The notes beneath the pieces were generated by a model that made no database searches, had not been told where the DNA came from, and saw only the letters and a list, made by a program, of their open reading frames with translations. A stretch of 64,000 nucleotides of DNA from an uncultured Granulosicoccaceae bacterium (GTDB lineage: Bacteria; Pseudomonadota; Gammaproteobacteria; Granulosicoccales; Granulosicoccaceae), in NCBI GenBank assembly GCA_937951345.1, contig CALFCF010000014.1:1-64000 (forward strand). Direction: 5' to 3'. Positions 6,485 to 64,000 of the stretch are shown here, one piece after another. Every line of letters starts with the position of its first letter. Position 1 is the first letter of the stretch. The position numbers and the translations under genes are program-made.

Positions 6485-7584
6485 CGCTGAGAATTACCCG
6501 TAGGCACAACAATAATATCGCGACGAAAGATTGCCAACTGCACCTGTGAGCCGGGATTTGCCGTGATACCTGGCGTAGCAGTGCCGGTACTCGACCGGAC
6601 GCTGACTTCAGTACCGTCGTCCAAAACAACCAGCAACAAAGCAGTTTCGCCCTGAAACACCGATTCCTTGACAGTACCATTGAAGAAAAGTGTGCTATCG
6701 CGATCGGCAGTGCCAGGTTCAACCATCAAACGCTCCGGCCGGATAACCAACGACCAGTCTGTCTCTGCAGGTGTATCCGGAACAGATGAAACCCGTTCAT
6801 CGCCAACAAAAAGCTCATTACCCGTTCGCTTTAACGGAATCATTGTAGATTCACCAATAAAATCAGCAACGAACGCATTGCTTGGCTGGTTATAAATAAC
6901 TTGTGGCGCATCGACCTGCATCAACTGCCCGTTATCTATAACGGCTATCCTGTCTGACATTGTCAGAGCTTCACGTTGATCGTGAGTGACATATACGGTG
7001 GTAACACCCAGCTGCCTGTGCAAATCCTTAAGTTCGATCTGCATTCGCTCGCGTAGTTTTTTATCCAGTGCAGATAAAGGCTCGTCCATTAACAATATGC
7101 GTGGTTCGAATACAAATGCACGTGCAAGCGCAACACGTTGGCGCTGCCCACCCGAAAGCTGATCAATATGGCGCTCACCCAACCCTGACAATTGGACCGT
7201 ATCCAGTGCCTTGTTCACTCGCTCACGTCTCTCGCTTTTGTTAACGCGGCGCAGCTTCAGTGGATACGCAATGTTTTCGGCAACCGACATGTGCGGAAAC
7301 AAGGCATAACTCTGAAACACCATACCGACTTCGCGTTTGTGTGGCGGTGTCAGTATCATCTCTTTATCGCCAAAACGAATGCTTCCGGCATCCGGTCGGT
7401 TGAACCCGGCAATTGCCATCAACAAGGTGGTTTTGCCCGAACCGGAAGGACCCAGCAGAGTCAGGAACTCGCCGCTTTTTATATCCAGATCGACAGTGTC
7501 AAGCGCATATAGCTGCCCGTATTGCTTGGTCAGCCCGCGGATGGAGATGGGCAGAGCAGAATCTACGATAGATGATTCATTCAC
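6481..7584 (-). CDS. ABC transporter ATP-binding protein, PotA type
   Basis: Cytoplasmic ATPase of the importer, 367 aa. Walker A is GPSGSGKTT (about residues 45-53), the signature is LSGGQ (143-147), Walker B is LLMDEP (163-168), and a C-terminal TOBE-like regulatory region follows from about residue 240. The start is a GTG at 7584, set by the conserved beginning of the ABC domain; its ribosome binding site is weak. That fits lower expression than the binding protein upstream, from which it is separated by a strong hairpin. Confidence 0.94.
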   Translation of the reverse strand: MNESSIVDSALPISIRGLTKQYGQLYALDTVDLDIKSGEFLTLLGPSGSGKTTLLMAIAGFNRPDAGSIRFGDKEMILTPPHKREVGMVFQSYALFPHMSVAENIAYPLKLRRVNKSERRERVNKALDTVQLSGLGERHIDQLSGGQRQRVALARAFVFEPRILLMDEPLSALDKKLRERMQIELKDLHRQLGVTTVYVTHDQREALTMSDRIAVIDNGQLMQVDAPQVIYNQPSNAFVADFIGESTMIPLKRTGNELFVGDERVSSVPDTPAETDWSLVIRPERLMVEPGTADRDSTLFFNGTVKESVFQGETALLLVVLDDGTEVSVRSSTGTATPGITANPGSQVQLAIFRRDIIVVPTGNSQR

Positions 7585-55867: not shown

Positions 55868-56348
55868 GGATCGCTACCCGGTTCCTGAAAACATTAAAAA
55901 TTGCGGTGATGGAATCAGGCATCAGATAGAACCTGAAGCAGGCTTAACTGAACACTTTCTTCAGGTCACGCACCCAAAAAAATCACAGCAAAAACACCAA
56001 ACAGTGCAAAATCGCCTGTTTAAGTCATCATTTTTGATTAATTGAGTATCGGCAAAGAAGCCATCAAACGCCATTTTTTCAGGAAAAGTACCGCTATGCG
56101 CCCCTGAGAGTATCGCCAATCGAGACCACTGCGTGTTCTGGCTTGCACCTGGATCACATACCTATATGATAAAAAAACAGAACTATCGAAAGCATTAAGA
56201 CCTGGCACCGGTAGATTTACGATGCCGGAAAGGATTGGTTATACGACGGGCATGGCTTATAAAAAAACCGTTCCGAATTGAACGACCTATTTTTCAAATC
56301 TATCTTTTATCAAAATATTGTATTAATACTTGAACGATTACCGAACAA
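55868..56348. other. AT-rich intergenic region
   Basis: A 481-base region between the DUF2157 gene and the BRCT-protein stop. It marks the change to a more AT-rich segment. No gene, repeat or hairpin could be supported. Confidence 0.45.
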
Positions 56349-56957
56349 TTAAAAGCCACCAATCTCCGCCCATTTTTCTTCCGAAATTATTGATAAAGGA
56401 CACCCTTCATCACGGTAAGCAACCGCTTTAATAATTTTGTTCCCAAAACTTTCATGCTTCCAGCTATCGGTTACATAAGTACCAATGACTAAAAAATCTA
56501 AAGATTTAGTTAGACTTTTTGCATTAATGCCACCTCGACTTTCTGTCGCTTCCTTACATAGTTTTCTCGCCCCATACGCGAATGTACCTGTATACAGAAA
56601 AGAATTCCCTTCAAGTGAAAACGATGGAGGTGGATCACAGAGAGGCAGCGTTGTAGCTTTTGCTACCTCACCTATTTCGGGGGATTCACCAGTAAACTGA
56701 TTTAAAGTTGTAACTAGCTCAGCAGACTCTTCATCATCAATCACACCATCCGCTAGCATACTCTCAACTTTCTCTAATAAATTTTCGACCAAAGGGTTAT
56801 CAGATCTGGATTTAGATTGAACCAGCCAGCTTACTAATACCGTTGCCTCCGCAGTGTTTATTTTACCGTCGGCCGTTAATCCTTTACTCAAACCGATTAA
56901 AGTATCGATGTCGCGGTCATTAATTTGTTTACGATTAAATTTCGTGTAAATCTCCAT
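56349..56957 (-). CDS. BRCT-domain protein
   Basis: A 202-aa protein. The N-terminal half (about 15-95) is helical with acidic repeats (TADGKINTAEATVLVSWL, LADGVIDDEESAELV), like TerB/EF-hand-type helices. The C-terminal half (about 118-200) reads as a BRCT domain (SFLYTGTFAYGARKLCKEA, SLTKSLDFLVIGTYVTDSWKHESFGNKI) related to that of NAD-dependent DNA ligase. BRCT domains bind DNA ends or phosphoproteins. It starts behind aaggatg at 56957 and has the AT-rich composition of the accessory region. Confidence 0.75.
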   Translation of the reverse strand: MEIYTKFNRKQINDRDIDTLIGLSKGLTADGKINTAEATVLVSWLVQSKSRSDNPLVENLLEKVESMLADGVIDDEESAELVTTLNQFTGESPEIGEVAKATTLPLCDPPPSFSLEGNSFLYTGTFAYGARKLCKEATESRGGINAKSLTKSLDFLVIGTYVTDSWKHESFGNKIIKAVAYRDEGCPLSIISEEKWAEIGGF

Positions 56958-57030
56958 AGCACATCCTTTTTTGTTTAGAAATTTGGCAGTATGCGCCTAG
57001 TGTGATCTTAGCAATTGCAGCAGTGAAATA

Positions 57031-57127
57031 TAACGCTTAGCACATAGGCAACTAGCGCAAGGCTGCGGTTCTGGGCGGAGCCCAGGTTCGTTGGCTTGGG
57101 CAAGTTGTCCTTTGCTGCATTTTGTTA
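57031..57127 (-). repeat. attC-like imperfect hairpin
   Basis: A 97-base imperfect palindrome. The left arm (57031-57058) and right arm (57098-57127) pair through blocks taac, gca, agg and caact. A perfect inner stem ctgggc / gcccag lies at 57071-57085. On the minus strand the HNH stop codon (TAA, 57125-57127) lies inside the first core, as in many integron gene cassettes, and a GTTA core closes the far end. No integrase gene is present, so this is a possible cassette recombination site only. Confidence 0.35.
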
Positions 57128-57601
57128 GTTGCGTACATCTCGCAGTTCTCTTATTTTCTTGACCGCTGCATCAAAATCATCGAGCGCAGATTCGATTATA
57201 CTTTCAGCCTCAACCATCTTACTTTTCAAATCAATAGTATCTGGCATCTCGCTGATCCATCCATCTATCTTCAACCGGCGAGCTTGAAATTCACCTTCAC
57301 TGTCAGTTTTCTTTCTGAGGAAAGCAGCCCAATCCTCTTCTCGCTTTTCATCTCCATTACATTTCGCACAAGATAATACGAAATTATGGATGTCATTACT
57401 GCCGCCCTCAGAAACAGCTAGAACATGATCCAAGTGCCCCGTTCGCGATTTACGATCAATCTGTTGCGCACAATAAGCACAACTGGAACAAAAATACTCC
57501 CACAAAGCACCTACCTCTTTTTTTTTCGGATGAGGATCAAGAACAGCAATCAGACTGCGTCTGATTTTATTCTTCGCCATTGAAGGAGTATCTTTAGGCA
57601 T
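57125..57601 (-). CDS. HNH endonuclease
   Basis: A 158-aa protein with a zinc-bound HNH nuclease motif: C41 and C44 (CSSCAYC), the catalytic GHLDHVLAVSEGG (H56, H59), N/H at 69-73 (SNDIHNF) and the closing C78/C81 (LSCAKCNGDEK). The C-terminal part is a predicted helical tail. The context is accessory DNA with no clear partner gene. It could be a mobile-element or defence nuclease. The start follows a short ctaacag / ctgttag palindrome by about 15 bases. Confidence 0.85.
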   Translation of the reverse strand: MPKDTPSMAKNKIRRSLIAVLDPHPKKKEVGALWEYFCSSCAYCAQQIDRKSRTGHLDHVLAVSEGGSNDIHNFVLSCAKCNGDEKREEDWAAFLRKKTDSEGEFQARRLKIDGWISEMPDTIDLKSKMVEAESIIESALDDFDAAVKKIRELRDVRN

Positions 57602-57850
57602 ATCTATCCTGAGCAGCTAACAGCCTGTTAGTGCGCACGTCTCATAATCTCCCAAGAATCAGGATCAAAACAGCGCCGCAAACAATTGATACAGCGTACA
57701 CAAACTAATCAACAACAACCACTAAACGAAAGATTAGATCCAACAACAATAAGAAATAGGAACAATCCAAGACCTTACACTGTAGAAACTACGAATTGAA
57801 TTAGAAATATATCGCCACCAAAAACCCAACAACTACAAGAAGGTAGCCTC
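57602..57850. other. Short AT-rich spacer upstream of HNH gene
   Basis: Holds the perfect palindrome ctaacag-c-ctgttag at 57617-57631, which resembles two facing GTTAG cores and could be the left boundary of a cassette. Otherwise featureless. Confidence 0.35.
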
Positions 57851-57922
57851 CCTGTATCGGGTGGTTGTACTGCAGCGGTCTCTGCGGCTAGGATGCCGCA
57901 GCGAAGCCTCCATGGATGGATT
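57851..57922. repeat. Left half of palindromic intergenic repeat (transposon target)
   Basis: The segment 57851-57878 pairs with 62513-62540 at 21 of 28 positions once the transposon is removed. An inner perfect stem ctgcggc / gccgcag (57882-57888, 57895-57901) is also present. Together the two halves make a roughly 110-base stem-loop element of the kind dispersed between genes in many gammaproteobacteria. Confidence 0.65.
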
Positions 57923-57948
57923 CGGAATTATGTAGCTGTTGCACAAGG
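57923..57948 (+). repeat. Left terminal inverted repeat
   Basis: Begins CGGAATTATGTAGC and continues TGTTGCACAAGG; 22 of 26 bases match the reverse complement of the right end. Preceded directly by GATGGATT. Confidence 0.88.
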
Positions 57949-57986
57949 GGGTAAGCTATTGATACAGCAAAATATTTCTTAGAATA

Positions 57987-58661
57987 TCAGAATAGTTTTG
58001 CTATTTGTTTGGCTAGTTGAAGAGCAATTTTAGATCGATCCGGCATCATTAAATAAGATAGCTGAGACAAGAATTTCAGACTTTCTCGGCCCTGCCTTAC
58101 AGCCGCAGTTGGCTGAGAAGACAGATTGATTCTAGTGCTGCTAGAAATAAGCTCAGCAAAAGCGTCTTGGCCTTCATCGCCTGTAAGATTGCAACTCCCA
58201 TAAGCAGCCATTATCTCATTGATTTCACATACCCTGTCAGGGTCGATAGCTCTTACGGCCAGGAGGTATTTTATCGAAAACAGCAATGGCCATCTTAATT
58301 CTTTGGCGTTCTGCCACTCACTGGGATCAAGCGCAGGGCTAGGATCTGTGTGAGAACATGCAATGTAGTGTATGAACTCATCTGATGTTACTGCGCCGTC
58401 TGCTGCCAAGACTTCTGCAACTGGAGAAGCTATAGCGCCAGTGCCTTGCTCGCTAACCAAGCGCATTAGCTTGAATATCCTTGAGTAGTTTCTCCAGGGC
58501 TTGTAACTGGGATTGTTCGCAGGGTAGAACGGCAATTCAGTGGCTTCATTAATCTGCCCCTGTGATGCCTGCTTGAGATCCATTTCGGTCGCCGCCTTAG
58601 CCATTTTTCGAACATTGTCGAACTCAAAATAACTCAGCCGGCCCTGATCCCATCTCCACAT
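57987..58661 (-). CDS. Cargo protein resembling the N-terminal region of restriction-type endonucleases
   Basis: A 224-aa protein beginning MWRWDQGRLSYFEFDN and containing YKPWRNYSRIFKLM and LSQLSYL. From memory this pattern matches the N-terminal portion of larger HNH-type restriction-like enzymes, but here no nuclease motif follows. It may be a truncated derivative or a stand-alone recognition module. It is the leftmost gene in the transposon and is divergent from the 58798 gene. Function unknown. Confidence 0.6.
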   Translation of the reverse strand: MWRWDQGRLSYFEFDNVRKMAKAATEMDLKQASQGQINEATELPFYPANNPSYKPWRNYSRIFKLMRLVSEQGTGAIASPVAEVLAADGAVTSDEFIHYIACSHTDPSPALDPSEWQNAKELRWPLLFSIKYLLAVRAIDPDRVCEINEIMAAYGSCNLTGDEGQDAFAELISSSTRINLSSQPTAAVRQGRESLKFLSQLSYLMMPDRSKIALQLAKQIAKLF

Positions 58662-58797
58662 TTTTTAGTACGCTATTTTCGTGCAGCAAGCGAAATTGCT
58701 TTTGTAATAATAACACTAACAAACTTCATGCTGATCATTGACAATGTTAATTTATTCAACCACAATTGATGTTGTAATAATTAACACGGTGAGTTTA

Positions 58798-59421
58798 ATG
58801 CAAGATTTTGCAGTATTGACGGATGAAATTGAAACAGAAGTAAGGCTCAACGAAATTGGGCTTGAAAAATCAAAGCTTATTGAGGTTGTTGATGCTGCAT
58901 TCATTGCTCGCGCAAACGCAACTGACCACCACCCAAAAAACGCTGGCGGCATGTTCTCGTGGCTGGACGGCGTTAGGCAGATGCGTGACAGCTTCGTTGG
59001 AGACAAGTGGCAATCTTCTCGGCATTCGAGCGTTGACTATATCGAATGCCCAACAGATATGGTTCGTATAGGTTTTTGCAATGTAGTTGTTGCCGCATCA
59101 ATTGAGCACGATCCTGAGCCTGTTTCGCCACGACGCAACAGCGCGATAGAGTCTTGCTACGCAAATTGCCAGCAATATGGGCTGCCTCATATGGGCGAAA
59201 AAAAACAAAACGATCCTTGGAAAACTTACTATTTAATGGTAGGCGAAGATGGAACAGCAGAATTATCTTTACCCCTAAAATGTGAGAGCGGCAAGTTTTA
59301 CGAGCTTGTCGAAAGAATATTTCTAGTTACTCAGGATGATTTGGATTCAGACTTTTCCTTTGATGATGTGTCTGAGTCTTCTGAGCCAGAAATTGAAATA
59401 GAAATAAAACGGAAAACCTGA
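58798..59421 (+). CDS. Hypothetical cargo protein coupled to XRE/ImmA gene
   Basis: A 207-aa soluble protein taken from the ATG at 58798, which follows ggtgag; the frame is open to 58738 without a good site. The tail is highly acidic (DDLDSDFSFDD, EPEIEIEI). No known domain is recognised. Its stop (TGA) shares one base with the ATG of the XRE/ImmA gene, so the two are translationally coupled. That arrangement is typical of toxin-antitoxin or regulator-target pairs. Confidence 0.7.
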   Translation: MQDFAVLTDEIETEVRLNEIGLEKSKLIEVVDAAFIARANATDHHPKNAGGMFSWLDGVRQMRDSFVGDKWQSSRHSSVDYIECPTDMVRIGFCNVVVAASIEHDPEPVSPRRNSAIESCYANCQQYGLPHMGEKKQNDPWKTYYLMVGEDGTAELSLPLKCESGKFYELVERIFLVTQDDLDSDFSFDDVSESSEPEIEIEIKRKT

Positions 59422-60497
59422 TGAAGCCCTTTAGTCCTGATCGATTTAACATCGCGCAAAAGCGCCGCCGATTGAAAGGGACTGAGCTGGCCAATCTTTC
59501 AGGCGTCACTGAAATAACAATTTCTCGAATTTCAAAGGGCAAAAACGAACCGGATACTTCTACCGTGGAGGCGTTGGCGAAAGCGCTGAATTATCCAGTC
59601 GCTTTCTTTTACGCGGGCGAAATTGAGATACTTAACAAGGACGAAGTGAGCTTTAGAAGCCTCTCACGAATGGCAGCATTGGACCGAGACGCAGCTATAG
59701 CGGCTGGCAGTATAGGCATGTTGCTGGCGGCCTGGATTGATGAGCGATTCAACCTGCCAAGCGCAGATGTTCCAGATTTTCGTGAAAGCGCACCAGAACA
59801 AGCAGCAGCCCTATTGCGCCAGCATTGGGGTATTGGCGAAAGGCCGATATCTAATCTGCTGAAATTGCTGGAATCAAAGGGCATTAGAATCTTTTCGCTT
59901 TGCGAAAACACCAAGAATGTTGATGCCTTTTCATTTTGGAGGAACGATCAGCCCTTTGTGTTTTTGAATACTTTCAAAACTGCGGAGCGAAGTTGTTTGG
60001 ACGCTGCTCATGAGGTCGGCCATCTGGTGCTGCACAGACATTCCAGCATGGGAGCTTGTAAGCAGGCTGAAACGGAGGCTAACCAGTTTGCATCAGCTTT
60101 CCTTATGCCCAAAGCCGACATGCTGGCCAAAGCGCCTAGAAGGCCGACTGTTGACAATATTCTAAAGGCAAAAAAGCGTTGGCGAGTTTCGGCAATGGCT
60201 ATGACAACGAGGCTCTACAGCCTGAACAGGCTAACCGAATGGCAGTACAGGTCCGCATGCATAGAGCTGTCCAAGCGCGGCTATAGGACATCAGAGCCAA
60301 TAGGTATAGATCGCGAATCATCAACTGTATTGCAAATGATCTTTCAAGAGCTTTGGAAAGATAAAATTACAAAAAAAGAAGTAGCTGCTGATTTGAATAT
60401 AGCGATGGATGAACTGGAGAGCCTAGTGTTTGGCTTAATAGGCGCGTCCATAGACAAGCCGTCGAGTACGGCAAAAAGTCAGTTAAGATCGATTTGA
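59421..60497 (+). CDS. XRE-family regulator with ImmA/IrrE metallopeptidase domain
   Basis: A 358-aa protein in two parts. The N-terminal Xre/Cro helix-turn-helix (about 8-62: KGTELANLSGVTEITISRISKGKNEP) is followed by an ImmA/IrrE-type zinc peptidase domain with HEVGH (H197, E198, H201) and the downstream AETEANQFASAFLMP region that supplies the third ligand. Such proteins cleave or derepress a partner regulator, as ImmA does on ICEBs1. The coupled upstream gene may be its partner. A strong intrinsic terminator follows. Confidence 0.88.
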   Translation: MKPFSPDRFNIAQKRRRLKGTELANLSGVTEITISRISKGKNEPDTSTVEALAKALNYPVAFFYAGEIEILNKDEVSFRSLSRMAALDRDAAIAAGSIGMLLAAWIDERFNLPSADVPDFRESAPEQAAALLRQHWGIGERPISNLLKLLESKGIRIFSLCENTKNVDAFSFWRNDQPFVFLNTFKTAERSCLDAAHEVGHLVLHRHSSMGACKQAETEANQFASAFLMPKADMLAKAPRRPTVDNILKAKKRWRVSAMAMTTRLYSLNRLTEWQYRSACIELSKRGYRTSEPIGIDRESSTVLQMIFQELWKDKITKKEVAADLNIAMDELESLVFGLIGASIDKPSSTAKSQLRSI

Positions 60498-60511
60498 AAT
60501 AACAGGTAATT

Positions 60512-60550
60512 CCAGACGGATAGCCGCGAACTATCCGTCTGGCGGTTTTC
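60512..60550 (+). terminator. Intrinsic terminator after XRE/ImmA gene
   Basis: Perfect 12-bp stem ccagacggatag / ctatccgtctgg with a 7-base loop, 14 bases after the stop and followed by cggttttc. It ends the two-gene cargo operon. Confidence 0.8.
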
Positions 60551-60681
60551 GGCCAATGCATGGCAGCCGAGCGGAGCGGCCCAGCCTTCCGTATGGAGTA
60601 AGCTGAGGTGTATAACTATTCCCGCTTATTATGAGCAAGAAGCAGGGAACGCTCCCTAGCAAGTATAGCAGCTTGCTGGTG

Positions 60682-60879
60682 TCAAACTTTGCGCTTCTTT
60701 GTAGCTTTTTTGTGCAGATCAACAATAGCCTTGCCAGCGTCGTACTTGGGTTGGTCACGCTTTCCGGTACGCAAGCGGGTAATCATCGTCCGGTCGATCT
60801 CAGCAGCTTCAGCGACCTGCTGGTCGGTATAACCTGCATCCTGCAATTCAATAAGTAATTTCACAAAATCTGTAGCCAT
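60682..60879 (-). CDS. Small HTH (Cro-like) DNA-binding protein
   Basis: A 65-aa protein that is almost entirely a helix-turn-helix domain (LIELQDAGYTDQQVAEAAEI, DRTMITRLRTGKR) with a basic C-terminus. It is divergent from the transposase gene. The space between them holds two palindromic sites, so it probably represses the transposase and itself. Such a dedicated repressor is unusual for IS1595 elements. Confidence 0.75.
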   Translation of the reverse strand: MATDFVKLLIELQDAGYTDQQVAEAAEIDRTMITRLRTGKRDQPKYDAGKAIVDLHKKATKKRKV

Positions 60880-60921
60880 GTTTTCAATACGCGATTTAGT
60901 CCGAGCTTGATATTAACTTAA

Positions 60922-60937
60922 TGTGTCAAATGGCACA
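60922..60937. promoter_or_regulatory. Operator 1 for small HTH protein
   Basis: Sequence tgtgtcaaatggcaca: two 7-base half-sites (one mismatch) around a 2-base centre. It lies 43 bases upstream of the HTH start codon. Its centre is 33 bp from that of operator 2, close to three helical turns. Confidence 0.65.
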
Positions 60938-60945
60938 AATATCGC

Positions 60946-60951
60946 TTGACT
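60946..60951 (+). promoter_or_regulatory. Candidate -35 box of transposase promoter
   Basis: ttgact lies between the two operators, where a bound repressor would occlude it. The matching -10 would fall over operator 2 and the start codon and is not clear. Confidence 0.35.
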
Positions 60952-60954
60952 GTA

Positions 60955-60970
60955 TGTGCCATTTGGCACA
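60955..60970. promoter_or_regulatory. Operator 2 at the transposase start
   Basis: Sequence tgtgccatttggcaca: perfect 7-base half-sites around a 2-base centre, ending two bases before the proposed transposase ATG. Same consensus as operator 1. Confidence 0.7.
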
Positions 60971-60972
60971 CA

Positions 60973-61998
60973 ATGAATCGCATGAAAACAAAGAAAGGAC
61001 AACACTATCTTCTCTCTGCCGAAGCTCGCACCATGAGCTTGATGCAGATCATGCGCCTGTCTGATGAAGAAGCGTTCGAGCTTTTCAAAAACTCACGATG
61101 GACTGATGGTGAGCCTGTATGCCCTTGCTGCTCACACAAAGAGCATTACTGGATTGGCACTCGTAAGCAGTGGCGCTGTAAGGACTGCGGTCATACTTTC
61201 AGCGTTACCAGCGGCACTATCTTCGCCAATCACAAACTGCCCCTGACTCACTATCTGGCCGCAATCGCGCTGTATTCAAACTGTGCAAAGGGCATGTCAG
61301 CGCTTCAACTATCGCGCGATCTTGACGTTCAATACAAAACTGCTTTTGTCCTGGCTCACAAACTACGCGAATCTATGCTGGACGATGATGATTCACTCAT
61401 GACTGGCGAAGTTGAAATGGACGCGGCGTATGTAAACAAGCATGTGCGACCTAAGAACGACATTAAGGATCGCATTGATCGTCGCTTGAAGCGCAACCAG
61501 AACCCAAAGAAACGCGCTGTAATGGTTATCCGTCAGCGTGGCGAAGCGGGCGAAGGCGCTGTTAAAACCCGCACTTTCCTGACTCGTAGCGAAAATCAGC
61601 AAACAGCTTTCCACTTGGCGATTGACAATATTGACCGTTCAGCAGTGATCTTTGCCGACGAGCACAGCAGCTATGACGTGCTGCATGCTTCTTTACTCAC
61701 ACAGCGCGTGGTCCACGCTCGGCACTACGTCGGCCCTAACGGCGAGAACACCAATCAGGCTGAATCGTTCTTCTCACGGTTCCGCAGGATGCAGTATGGC
61801 CAGACTCACCAGATGGATAACAAATACATGGATCGTTACGCTAACGAAGCTGCGTACCGTGAAGATACTCGCCGCCGCAGCAATGGTGAAATATTCGAAG
61901 ATATCCTGACCCGTTGCGCTAAATCACCAGTATCACGCGATTTCTGCGGATACTGGCAAGGTAACAACAAAGCTGGCGAGTCTCTGGCTTACTGCTGA
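60973..61998 (+). CDS. IS1595-family (ISXO2-like) DDE transposase
   Basis: Transposase of 341 aa from the ATG at 60973 (60982 is also possible). An N-terminal zinc ribbon (CPCC at 50-53 and CKDC at 69-72) leads into FSVTSGTIFANHKL and LSRDLDVQYKTAFVLAHKLRE (split motif, about 113-133). Catalytic acids are D150 (EMDAAYV), D229 (FADEHSSYD) and E264 (NTNQAESFFSRFRR). All motifs are intact, so it may be active. The 3' end overlaps the convergent 61989 gene by 10 bases. Confidence 0.93.
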   Translation: MNRMKTKKGQHYLLSAEARTMSLMQIMRLSDEEAFELFKNSRWTDGEPVCPCCSHKEHYWIGTRKQWRCKDCGHTFSVTSGTIFANHKLPLTHYLAAIALYSNCAKGMSALQLSRDLDVQYKTAFVLAHKLRESMLDDDDSLMTGEVEMDAAYVNKHVRPKNDIKDRIDRRLKRNQNPKKRAVMVIRQRGEAGEGAVKTRTFLTRSENQQTAFHLAIDNIDRSAVIFADEHSSYDVLHASLLTQRVVHARHYVGPNGENTNQAESFFSRFRRMQYGQTHQMDNKYMDRYANEAAYREDTRRRSNGEIFEDILTRCAKSPVSRDFCGYWQGNNKAGESLAYC

Positions 61999-62438
61999 GA
62001 GACTCTAGCTGCTGCCAATTCATCTGTTAATCGGTAGCGGCACCCATCTTTCACGACCCATCCCCGCTTTATCTTCCGCGTTAAATGGTTCTTTATCTTG
62101 TCCCGCAGCATCCGGCGCTCGTCTGAGGTTTCACAAGGGTGTCCAGCGGCAATCAACTTGTCGCATATCTCGGCAACGGTATGAGGACCATCGCTTATCA
62201 TCTGCGCGACTTCTGATTGATAGGGGATAAGCCTGCGATCAGGGTCCATGTAGCGTTTGGGCGTGATCGTGCCCAGGTTAAAGGTTGGATCAATTACCAG
62301 AATGGCTTTATCAAGGGCTGCTACGTTCTCTTGTAGCGCAAACAGTTCGCGGGTGAGATAGTCAGCTTTGGCCTGTATATCCCTGCGCTGCTTGATTAAG
62401 CCGGATATGACGAGATTTCGCGGTTTTGAATCGTCCAT
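61989..62438 (-). CDS. Cargo protein with coiled coil and winged-helix-like C-terminus
   Basis: A 149-aa protein. Residues 15-45 form a predicted coiled coil (QRRDIQAKADYLTREL, FALQENVAALDKAIL). The C-terminal half (about 75-140) looks like a winged helix (VAQMISDGPHTVAEICDKLI, HLTRKIKRGWVVKDG). It is convergent with and overlaps the transposase by 10 bases, and ends the cargo set before the right end. It may be a DNA-binding accessory factor; function unknown. Confidence 0.65.
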   Translation of the reverse strand: MDDSKPRNLVISGLIKQRRDIQAKADYLTRELFALQENVAALDKAILVIDPTFNLGTITPKRYMDPDRRLIPYQSEVAQMISDGPHTVAEICDKLIAAGHPCETSDERRMLRDKIKNHLTRKIKRGWVVKDGCRYRLTDELAAARVSQQ

Positions 62439-62470
62439 GCTGCCATTTTAAATCTGGCCGCACGAAATAG

Positions 62471-62496
62471 CTTTGTGCAAGTGCTACCTAATTCCG
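62471..62496 (-). repeat. Right terminal inverted repeat
   Basis: Read on the minus strand it begins CGGAATTAGGTAGC and continues ACTTGCACAAAG, matching the left end at 22 of 26 positions. Followed directly by GATGGATT. Confidence 0.88.
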
Positions 62497-62540
62497 GATG
62501 GATTCACGGCGTCCGCAACAGTGCAGCAACCCGGGACAGG
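62497..62540. repeat. Right half of palindromic intergenic repeat (transposon target)
   Basis: Includes the second copy of the 8-bp target duplication (62497-62504) and the arm 62513-62540 that pairs with 57851-57878. Confidence 0.6.
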
Positions 62541-62583
62541 CAGGCGGAAATTTGAAAAGGATTAATCGGGGAGAAAAAACGTT

Positions 62584-64000
62584 CTAAACAGCCAACGCTT
62601 TTTTCGCAGCGTTTATCTTCTCACTGCTTATTTCTATATCCTGCTGAAACGCCAATGCATTTTTCTGATACAGGTTTCTGCAATAAAAATGGCGCTTCTT
62701 ACCGCTGGTTGTGCGCGGAATCTCTCGTGATTTACTGAGCAGTATTCGATTAACCAGATAACTTTCCTGCGGGAAATTGGCTAGCAAATGATTAACCGCA
62801 TCATCGTCGATTGGCCCCTGACGTTCTACCAACACCACAATGTCACTTTCAGGATCAAGAATATCCGTTTCAAAGACAGCTACCTGTTCGTGAGATATGC
62901 CAAGCAGATCTGCAATTTGTTCTTCAATCGCACTGACAAGGTAATTTTCACCGTTACGGATTACGATATTCTTTATTCTTTCAATAATATAAAGCTCATC
63001 ATCCTTGATGATGCCCATATCACCGGTGTGCATCCTGCCATCCTTAAATCGCGCAACGAGCTCACCTTTATCACCCACATACCCGATCGCAACCGAATGA
63101 CCTTTTAACACAATCTCCCCGGCTATCCCTTCCCCAGCAACAACCTGATCATTTTCATCAACGATTTCAGCTGTCATACCATCAATCGGTTTACCCGCTG
63201 TACAAATTGCAATATCAGACGCAGGCACATAATCCGCCAATGACTCTGCATCAAACGGAATTTGCCGGGTGTCAGTGAGCGCTTTACCGATACCCATATC
63301 ATCAGGATTAAAACAAACAAATTTAGCCTTGTTCTCTGGTAACGAGATGGATGTGATAATGGTTGACTCCGCCAGGCCGTAGGCCGGACGAATGTTACTC
63401 TCGTCAATACCGGCATCACGGAACCTGTCAACAAACGATTGAATGGTTGATACACGAATCGGTTCCGCACCGATAAAAAGATGTTTAACCGAACTCAGAT
63501 CAAGCTCAGGCAAATCTTTTTCAGGTATTCGTTTAGAGCAGTAGTCGTAACCAAAATTAGGGGCTGTTGCAATTGTGCAGCGGTGCTCCGTCATGCCTTT
63601 TAGCCACAGGGATGGGCGTTTGACAAATTGCACCGGTGTCATCAGGTACAGTGGATAACGATTACAAAAACTGAATAGCACCGTGCCGACCAGCCCCATG
63701 TCGTGAAACAGTGGCAACCAGCTAATCATGCGCTCATTCTCATCCATGTTGACAGCGGCTTTGATACCCGACACGTTAGCGAGGATGTTGCCGTGCGAAA
63801 TCACAACAGCCTTGTGATCACCCGTTGATGAGCTGGTGGTTTGAAAAAAAGCAATATCGTCAGCTGTCGGCAATGTATTGATAACCGGCGTGTCACGCTC
63901 AGGCCAATCATCAGACGCTGAAGATTCGTCCGTGTCAGTGTTGCTGGCCCCGTTGCCAACGCTATCTGCAACACGAATAACGCGTACTGACTCAGGAATG
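62584..64000 (-). CDS. Fatty-acyl-AMP ligase (5' end beyond window)
   Basis: Adenylate-forming enzyme, C-terminal 472 residues; the frame stays open to the right edge. Motifs: FFQTTSSSTGDHKAVVISHGN (split P-loop A3, TSSSTG), HDMGLVGTVLFSF, APNFGYDYCSKRI and YGLAESTIITSIS, typical of FAAL enzymes, then the TGDMG ATP motif and a C-terminal lid. FAALs activate fatty acids as acyl-AMP and usually hand them to an acyl carrier or polyketide/NRPS protein. The expected partners would lie outside the window. An internal TTG at 63873 is not the start because coding continues upstream. Confidence 0.88.
   Translation of the reverse strand, partial: IPESVRVIRVADSVGNGASNTDTDESSASDDWPERDTPVINTLPTADDIAFFQTTSSSTGDHKAVVISHGNILANVSGIKAAVNMDENERMISWLPLFHDMGLVGTVLFSFCNRYPLYLMTPVQFVKRPSLWLKGMTEHRCTIATAPNFGYDYCSKRIPEKDLPELDLSSVKHLFIGAEPIRVSTIQSFVDRFRDAGIDESNIRPAYGLAESTIITSISLPENKAKFVCFNPDDMGIGKALTDTRQIPFDAESLADYVPASDIAICTAGKPIDGMTAEIVDENDQVVAGEGIAGEIVLKGHSVAIGYVGDKGELVARFKDGRMHTGDMGIIKDDELYIIERIKNIVIRNGENYLVSAIEEQIADLLGISHEQVAVFETDILDPESDIVVLVERQGPIDDDAVNHLLANFPQESYLVNRILLSKSREIPRTTSGKKRHFYCRNLYQKNALAFQQDIEISSEKINAAKKALAV

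Follow-up and report, generated by a model that had tools for sequence, protein, structure and literature searches.

Transporter IS (tIS) of the IS1595 family are known to carry passenger gene(s), as exemplified by tISCpe8 and MTnSag1/tISSag10 (Siguier et al. 2009 as cited in PMC5704250, PMC3129680), and some relaxase-less tIS are classed as mobilizable elements. Both examples measure 1.7-2.0 kb and consist of a transposase and one antibiotic-resistance gene. A conserved engine with swappable cargo rich in defense and toxin-antitoxin (TA) genes was described for Tn7-like defense carriers (Benler et al. 2021, PMC8649781), and a fixed insertion point in a dispersed hairpin repeat for REP-targeting insertion sequences (Tobes and Pareja 2006, PMC1525189). 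As to the cargo reported here, RosmerTA of Gordonia phage Kita guards against some coliphages, its toxin depolarizing membranes (PMC10440598).

The window, a stretch of 64,000 nucleotides from an uncultured Granulosicoccaceae bacterium, was found to contain what is very likely (probability about 0.86) a complete IS1595-family tIS carrying a RosmerTA defense module (Table 1); its transposition, the roles of its small core proteins, and the toxicity and phage defense of its cargo are inferred. With a DDE domain, zinc ribbon, intact triad, inverted repeats and 8-bp duplication, the element meets every IS1595 feature examined, the ability to transpose being inferred. Like known tIS, it combines an IS1595 DDE transposase, inverted repeats of about 25 bp and an 8-bp duplication with passenger genes inside. 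Unlike them, it belongs to a lineage of about 2-13 kb with HTH and F as two extra core genes, a bay of variable content and much defense-type cargo. A previous inspection of the bare sequence, here called the sequence-only reading, had contrasted the element with the usual one-gene IS1595. Since tIS with passengers are already known, size and cargo alone are not unprecedented; what is new is a modular lineage rich in defense cargo. In the open-access literature searched, neither the conserved three-gene core, swappable bay and defense bias nor any paper combining IS1595, defense systems and cargo was found, the passenger list of Siguier et al. (2009) lying outside that search.

The resemblance to Tn7-like carriers extends to engine and cargo, whereas the window element has a single IS1595-type DDE transposase, an 8-bp duplication and a far smaller core. 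No TnsA/B/C-type genes were detected among its six ORFs (Pfam, NCBIfam) and Tn7-like membership was not met. The test for an integrative and conjugative or mobilizable element was likewise not met, as the six ORFs include no integrase or relaxase, only the IS1595 transposase. REP-targeting insertion sequences share the fixed point in a hairpin repeat; the present lineage differs in being IS1595-type with cargo and in having a second hotspot just upstream of lexA. The cargo pair resembles RosmerTA in that an antitoxin with HTH and ImmA/IrrE domains adjoins a matching RmrT, with overlapping genes, and differs in lying inside an IS1595 transposon, its function being assigned by homology.

Boundaries and target site

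The left end CGGAATTATGTAGCTGTTGCACAAGG (from 57923) and the reverse complement of the right end CGGAATTAGGTAGCACTTGCACAAAG (ending at 62496) were identical at 22 of 26 positions, and both flanking 8-mers read GATGGATT, a perfect duplication. The sequence-only reading had claimed these ends, this duplication and a complete DDE triad, and all three held, exact to the base. All inverted 26-mer pairs more than 300 bp apart within 56001-64000 were scanned exhaustively. The element's end pair ranked first, and the scan of this interval gave no second independent inverted pair with ≥20/26 identity and ≥6/8 flank identity. The end pattern matched in 10 of 48 family genomes, mostly at paired ends of these elements, and its reversed control gave 0 matches in the same 48 genomes. 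No Rfam matches were obtained in the window. Between the ends lie six ORFs, the transposase and five others, in agreement with the five non-transposase genes counted earlier.

Table 1. Positions of the element, its genes and its target in the window.
Feature	Position	Strand	Remarks
IS1595-family transposon, whole element	57923-62496		4574 bp; intact ends, duplication and transposase
Hairpin-bearing dispersed repeat, left part of target	57882-57922	n/a	TGCGGCTAGGATGCCGCA ... CCTCCATGGATGGATT, resumed at 62505 by CACGGCGTC; uninterrupted copies in G001 and G002
Target-site duplication, left copy	57915-57922	n/a	GATGGATT, 8 bp; uninterrupted target in sister species
Terminal inverted repeat, left	57923-57948	+	22/26 versus right end
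Cargo ORF A	57987-58661	-	224 aa, orphan; divergent from rmrT
rmrT, RosmerTA toxin (by homology)	58798-59421	+	ATG start gives 207 aa, frame already open at 58738; PADLOC RmrT PDLC03932
rmrA, RosmerTA antitoxin (by homology)	59421-60497	+	N-terminal HTH and ImmA/IrrE (M78) peptidase domain
Small XRE-type HTH protein	60682-60879	-	65 aa; divergent from transposase; PHROG 6831 transcriptional regulator, E 3e-12
Two near-palindromic 16-bp boxes	60922-60970	n/a	TGTGTCAAATGGCACA (60922-60937) and TGTGCCATTTGGCACA (60955-60970); inverted repeat I4, 94% complementary
IS1595-family transposase	60982-61998	+	ATG 60982 is the likely start in a frame open since 60946; zinc ribbon and DDE triad both intact
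Conserved accessory gene F	61989-62438	-	Antisense, by right end; long N-terminal helix and winged-helix domain
Terminal inverted repeat, right	62471-62496	-	
Target-site duplication, right copy	62497-62504	n/a	GATGGATT, 8 bp

Joined across the element, the flanks read AAGCCTCCATGGATGGATTCACGGCGTC (28 bp), and the same 28 bases are present uninterrupted in sister species G001. The joined target is part of a dispersed repeat, 3' of a hairpin (GCCGC..GCGGC in G002), and further uninterrupted copies of this repeat occur in G001 and G002. Two more element ends, both in G002, lie at the identical nucleotide of the repeat (L049, flank GAAGTATT; L085, flank GACGTATT). Given these ends and the uninterrupted G001 target, the element boundaries are not due to chance and insertion at the repeat is recurrent. 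An exact target search of the element's own genome returned no additional copies. The flanking ligase gene, as a route to an orthologous empty site, was found in just two other family genomes at the threshold used, and the intergenic part was not alignable; the empty-site test was done on the uninterrupted repeat copies in place of ligase synteny. An element-free target, of the kind that the earlier suggestion to look for empty sites had in view, is present in G001. The observation named as refuting, the cargo genes at this locus in the absence of the inverted repeats, was not made, the G001 target being uninterrupted and RmrA missing from G001 and G002.

Three large elements (L076, L077 and L078) are inserted mid-way in palindromic repeats GTTACTTT...AAAGT(A/G)AC, possibly a further sign of hairpin targeting. 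Left of the window element, at 56349-57601, two short ORFs (one HNH endonuclease) with attC-like imperfect inverted repeats between them may be integron cassettes; a split integron-integrase family match, below the family cut-off, lies on contig C108 of the same genome.

Conserved core and cargo of this copy

The transposase matched the NCBIfam IS1595 model (NF033547; E 5.6e-40, 137.5 bits, cut-off 75) and contained the Pfam domains DDE_Tnp_IS1595 (PF12762, 7e-37) and Zn_ribbon_IS1595 (PF12760, 2e-14). Its triad (D159, D238, E273) and its zinc ribbon (C59/C62/C78/C81) were invariant in 19 sequences. The gene is single-copy in its genome, and no relatives could be confirmed in viral contigs. 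In the mechanism proposed, the transposase would mobilize all DNA between the ends and generate the 8-bp duplication on insertion, here at the fixed point of the hairpin repeat.

A core of three genes is common to the lineage, namely a small HTH gene, the divergent transposase gene and, antisense by the right end, the winged-helix gene F. The window's HTH protein matches phage repressors, and homologues of it occupy the same position in L019, L020, L021, L025 and L044. It is likely a transposition repressor, a role that is inferred, and would act on the two near-palindromic boxes, which sit in the common promoter region between the divergent genes. By the same kind of inference, these boxes, predicted to overlap the transposase promoter, are likely its operator. 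In L048 the small-gene position divergent from the IS1595 transposase (6636-6857) is occupied by DUF6471 (PF20075), a location from which a part in transposition control might tentatively be suggested.

Gene F was labelled in 29 of the 30 listed elements or halves, the sole exception being a contig with the left half only. Its AlphaFold model (pLDDT 91) consists of a long helix and a winged-helix domain, and its Foldseek neighbours included many winged-helix regulators with weak E-values. The product, an antisense-encoded coiled-coil winged-helix protein, is likely to be an end-binding or target-selection partner, again an inferred role. The HTH and F products are the element's two small DNA-binding core proteins, the right-hand one by predicted fold, where the sequence-only reading had spoken of regulators.

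RmrT matched the PADLOC profile PDLC03932 (E 1.7e-47) over nearly its full length (profile positions 7-208 of 209), and RmrA matched its PADLOC profile (E 3.6e-159) from position 2 to 354 of 357 and carried the Pfam domains Peptidase_M78 (3e-19) and HTH_3 (4e-8). The rmrA ATG overlaps the rmrT stop (TGATG). Homology to RosmerTA was shown in this way, and the pair is very likely a RosmerTA member by sequence; toxicity, neutralization and phage defense are inferred from that homology. RmrT families are diverse, and the toxicity mechanism here may differ from the published one. RmrT would be restrained by RmrA and released on phage infection, and the pair may also stabilize the element through addiction.

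Among the 48 family genomes, the window's own RmrA was the only close full-length one, the next match being 28% identical. RmrA relatives of 44-56% identity are scattered over plasmids of other bacteria, and acquisition by transfer is therefore likely. RmrA could not be confirmed in any viral contig.

ORF A had no family match in Pfam, NCBIfam, PADLOC or PHROG; searches of plasmids, viral contigs and 368 further genomes of the class returned no homologues, and the single-sequence fold model was unusable (pLDDT 38). As for the modules announced beforehand, the toxin-antitoxin-like pair held and is RosmerTA by sequence, whereas the restriction-like module failed for this copy. A restriction module had no Pfam, NCBIfam or PADLOC support among the ORFs, 57987-58661 and 61989-62438 being without such homology. 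No type II restriction-modification (RM) methyltransferase or endonuclease domain is present in this copy; RM genes occur in relatives alone, several of them.

Relatives with other cargo and competing readings

Relatives were gathered by transposase similarity, not by cargo, and their transposases were 55-69% identical to that of the window. About 30 elements with the same ends and core were found in gamma- and betaproteobacteria, as the sequence-only reading had proposed to check. In all, 30 elements or element halves were delimited, the complete ones spanning 1.9-12.7 kb. Perfect 8-bp duplications flank 18 of the 30 listed elements, and two more have one mismatch; two contigs hold the two halves of another element, with matching duplications.

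The cargo of these relatives is variable. Type II RM systems were found in L049, L033 (HindVP), L039 and L046, a type IIG enzyme with specificity subunit in L041, a type III RM system in L028 and a methyltransferase in L035. L075 carries an Eco57I/MmeI-like protein and the candidate pair PDC-M30/M41, with homologues in L077 and L078; L048 carries component B of PD-Lambda-2 (1e-40), L076 and L079 weak JetD-like genes, and L065 a Panacea protein with a homologue in L020. L034 contains a PAAR protein with amidase-like and membrane proteins, the latter two named by inspection alone, and the remaining relatives contain P63C proteins and recurrent membrane proteins. The cargo is frequently a complete operon of one system and not scraps of neighbouring genes. 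In L049, from the same genus (genome G002), the right 0.78 kb is 88% identical to the window element and the cargo is wholly different, a type II RM system taking the place of RosmerTA. This common right end with other cargo is direct evidence that cargo has been exchanged while the engine was kept. The main cargo bay would be the part to the left of the HTH gene, presumably with many exchanges of content in the history of the lineage, RM and other defense systems often coming in.

Enrichment was assessed at a PADLOC threshold of E≤1e-20 by comparing cargo ORFs with the ORFs flanking the same elements. Matches were obtained for at least 19 of 79 cargo ORFs (individual element scans plus two further members from the pooled tally) versus at most 2 of 80 flanking ORFs, and 118 versus 2 PADLOC families were matched. 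Fisher's p was about 4e-5; this value is indicative, since ORFs of one operon were counted as independent. Counted by element, a strong PADLOC match was present in 12 of about 29, more than half being without one; PADLOC is limited to known defense systems. The idea, put forward earlier, of a mobile carrier of a defense or stability function is supported by these relatives with the same ends and many other defense systems, the function itself being inferred.

Several cargo regions were noted apart from these matches. The PAAR-motif, amidase-like and small membrane proteins at L034:4070-6599 resemble a secreted effector and immunity set for interbacterial competition. The operons of L076 and L079 comprise several genes, among them ones for large SMC/ATPase-like proteins and ones with weak JetD matches, and are conceivably divergent Wadjet- or MADS-related systems; in L079 the ends and F are present and a transposase match is absent. 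A recurrent membrane-type protein of ~340-380 aa without family match occurs in L022, L023, L063, L064, L066 and L067, mostly at the lexA site, and might be an unknown defense or SOS-linked gene.

Three other explanations were weighed. The cargo could be a selfish addiction module, RosmerTA stabilizing the transposon by post-segregational killing with phage defense incidental. This remains possible: rmrT and rmrA form a TA pair with overlapping genes, and TA-like Panacea proteins occur in relatives too (L065 and its homologue in L020). Against it, several relatives bear whole RM systems instead of TA pairs and published RosmerTA systems are antiphage; RM systems can addict as well, however, so that the addiction and defense readings overlap. 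It is less probable that these are generic passenger-carrying tIS picking up nearby DNA, with a defense excess that mirrors the abundance of such genes in accessory DNA. PAAR/effector-like genes, P63C proteins, membrane proteins and unknowns among the cargo would fit, as would the known tIS with resistance genes, but the immediate flanks of the same elements have far fewer defense matches than the cargo, and the cargo is often the whole operon of one system.

All but excluded is a decayed larger element (integron, ICE or Tn7-like) whose IS1595 ends are due to chance or secondary. In its favour are the possible integron-like cassettes just outside the element (56349-57601) and the genome's split integron-integrase match below cut-off. 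It is contradicted by the perfect duplication, by the uninterrupted target in the sister species, by about 30 relatives that have these ends and this core and lie at unrelated sites, and by the six ORFs, none of which is homologous to an integrase, a relaxase or Tns.

The reading as a complete tIS with RosmerTA cargo is retained. A bolder extension, as likely to fail as to hold, is that a distinct IS1595-family lineage, its core made up of the transposase, the coiled-coil winged-helix gene and a small gene of HTH or DUF6471 type, serves as a modular vehicle dedicated to bacterial immune systems across gamma- and betaproteobacteria, with hairpin repeats and the DNA immediately upstream of lexA as recurrent insertion sites. 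Were this true, ORF A, the recurrent membrane proteins, a 277-318 aa family and the P63C proteins would be candidate unknown defense systems. Defense systems pass quickly between bacteria by vehicles that are often unknown, and here readable ends and exact boundaries expose the vehicle. The ends can be used as a search handle for cargo, unrecognized defense genes included, and the lineage offers context for protein F and for DUF6471 (beside the transposase in L048), as well as a simple system for studying cargo swapping.

Inferred mobility of relatives and insertions upstream of lexA

A relative of 5.1 kb (L029) forms its own contig in one Methylobacter MAG, and four further contig ends show two insertion sites in one genome, one duplicated as CACACATC and the other as TATTTAAA. 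These two copies are indirect evidence of transposition; current transposition of the window element, known as a single copy in one assembly, is inferred.

In five Granulosicoccus species, the lexA start has an element 70-103 bp upstream of it (L063, L065, L023, L064 and L067). Both orientations are represented and the 8-bp duplications differ; most other species are without any element there. At the same lexA-upstream place, L118 (G028) contains a possible decayed end. A second right end in L045 was considered as a stacked insertion and dropped, by reasoning alone, since the flank that resembles a duplication might be the same palindromic target present a second time. In L063 (9280-9316) and L065 (930-968) the element has, immediately to its left, another right-end repeat standing alone, with target-duplication bases between, as if an earlier element might once have held the same site. 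Because this extra solo right end is common to both, L063 and L065 may represent one inherited insertion.
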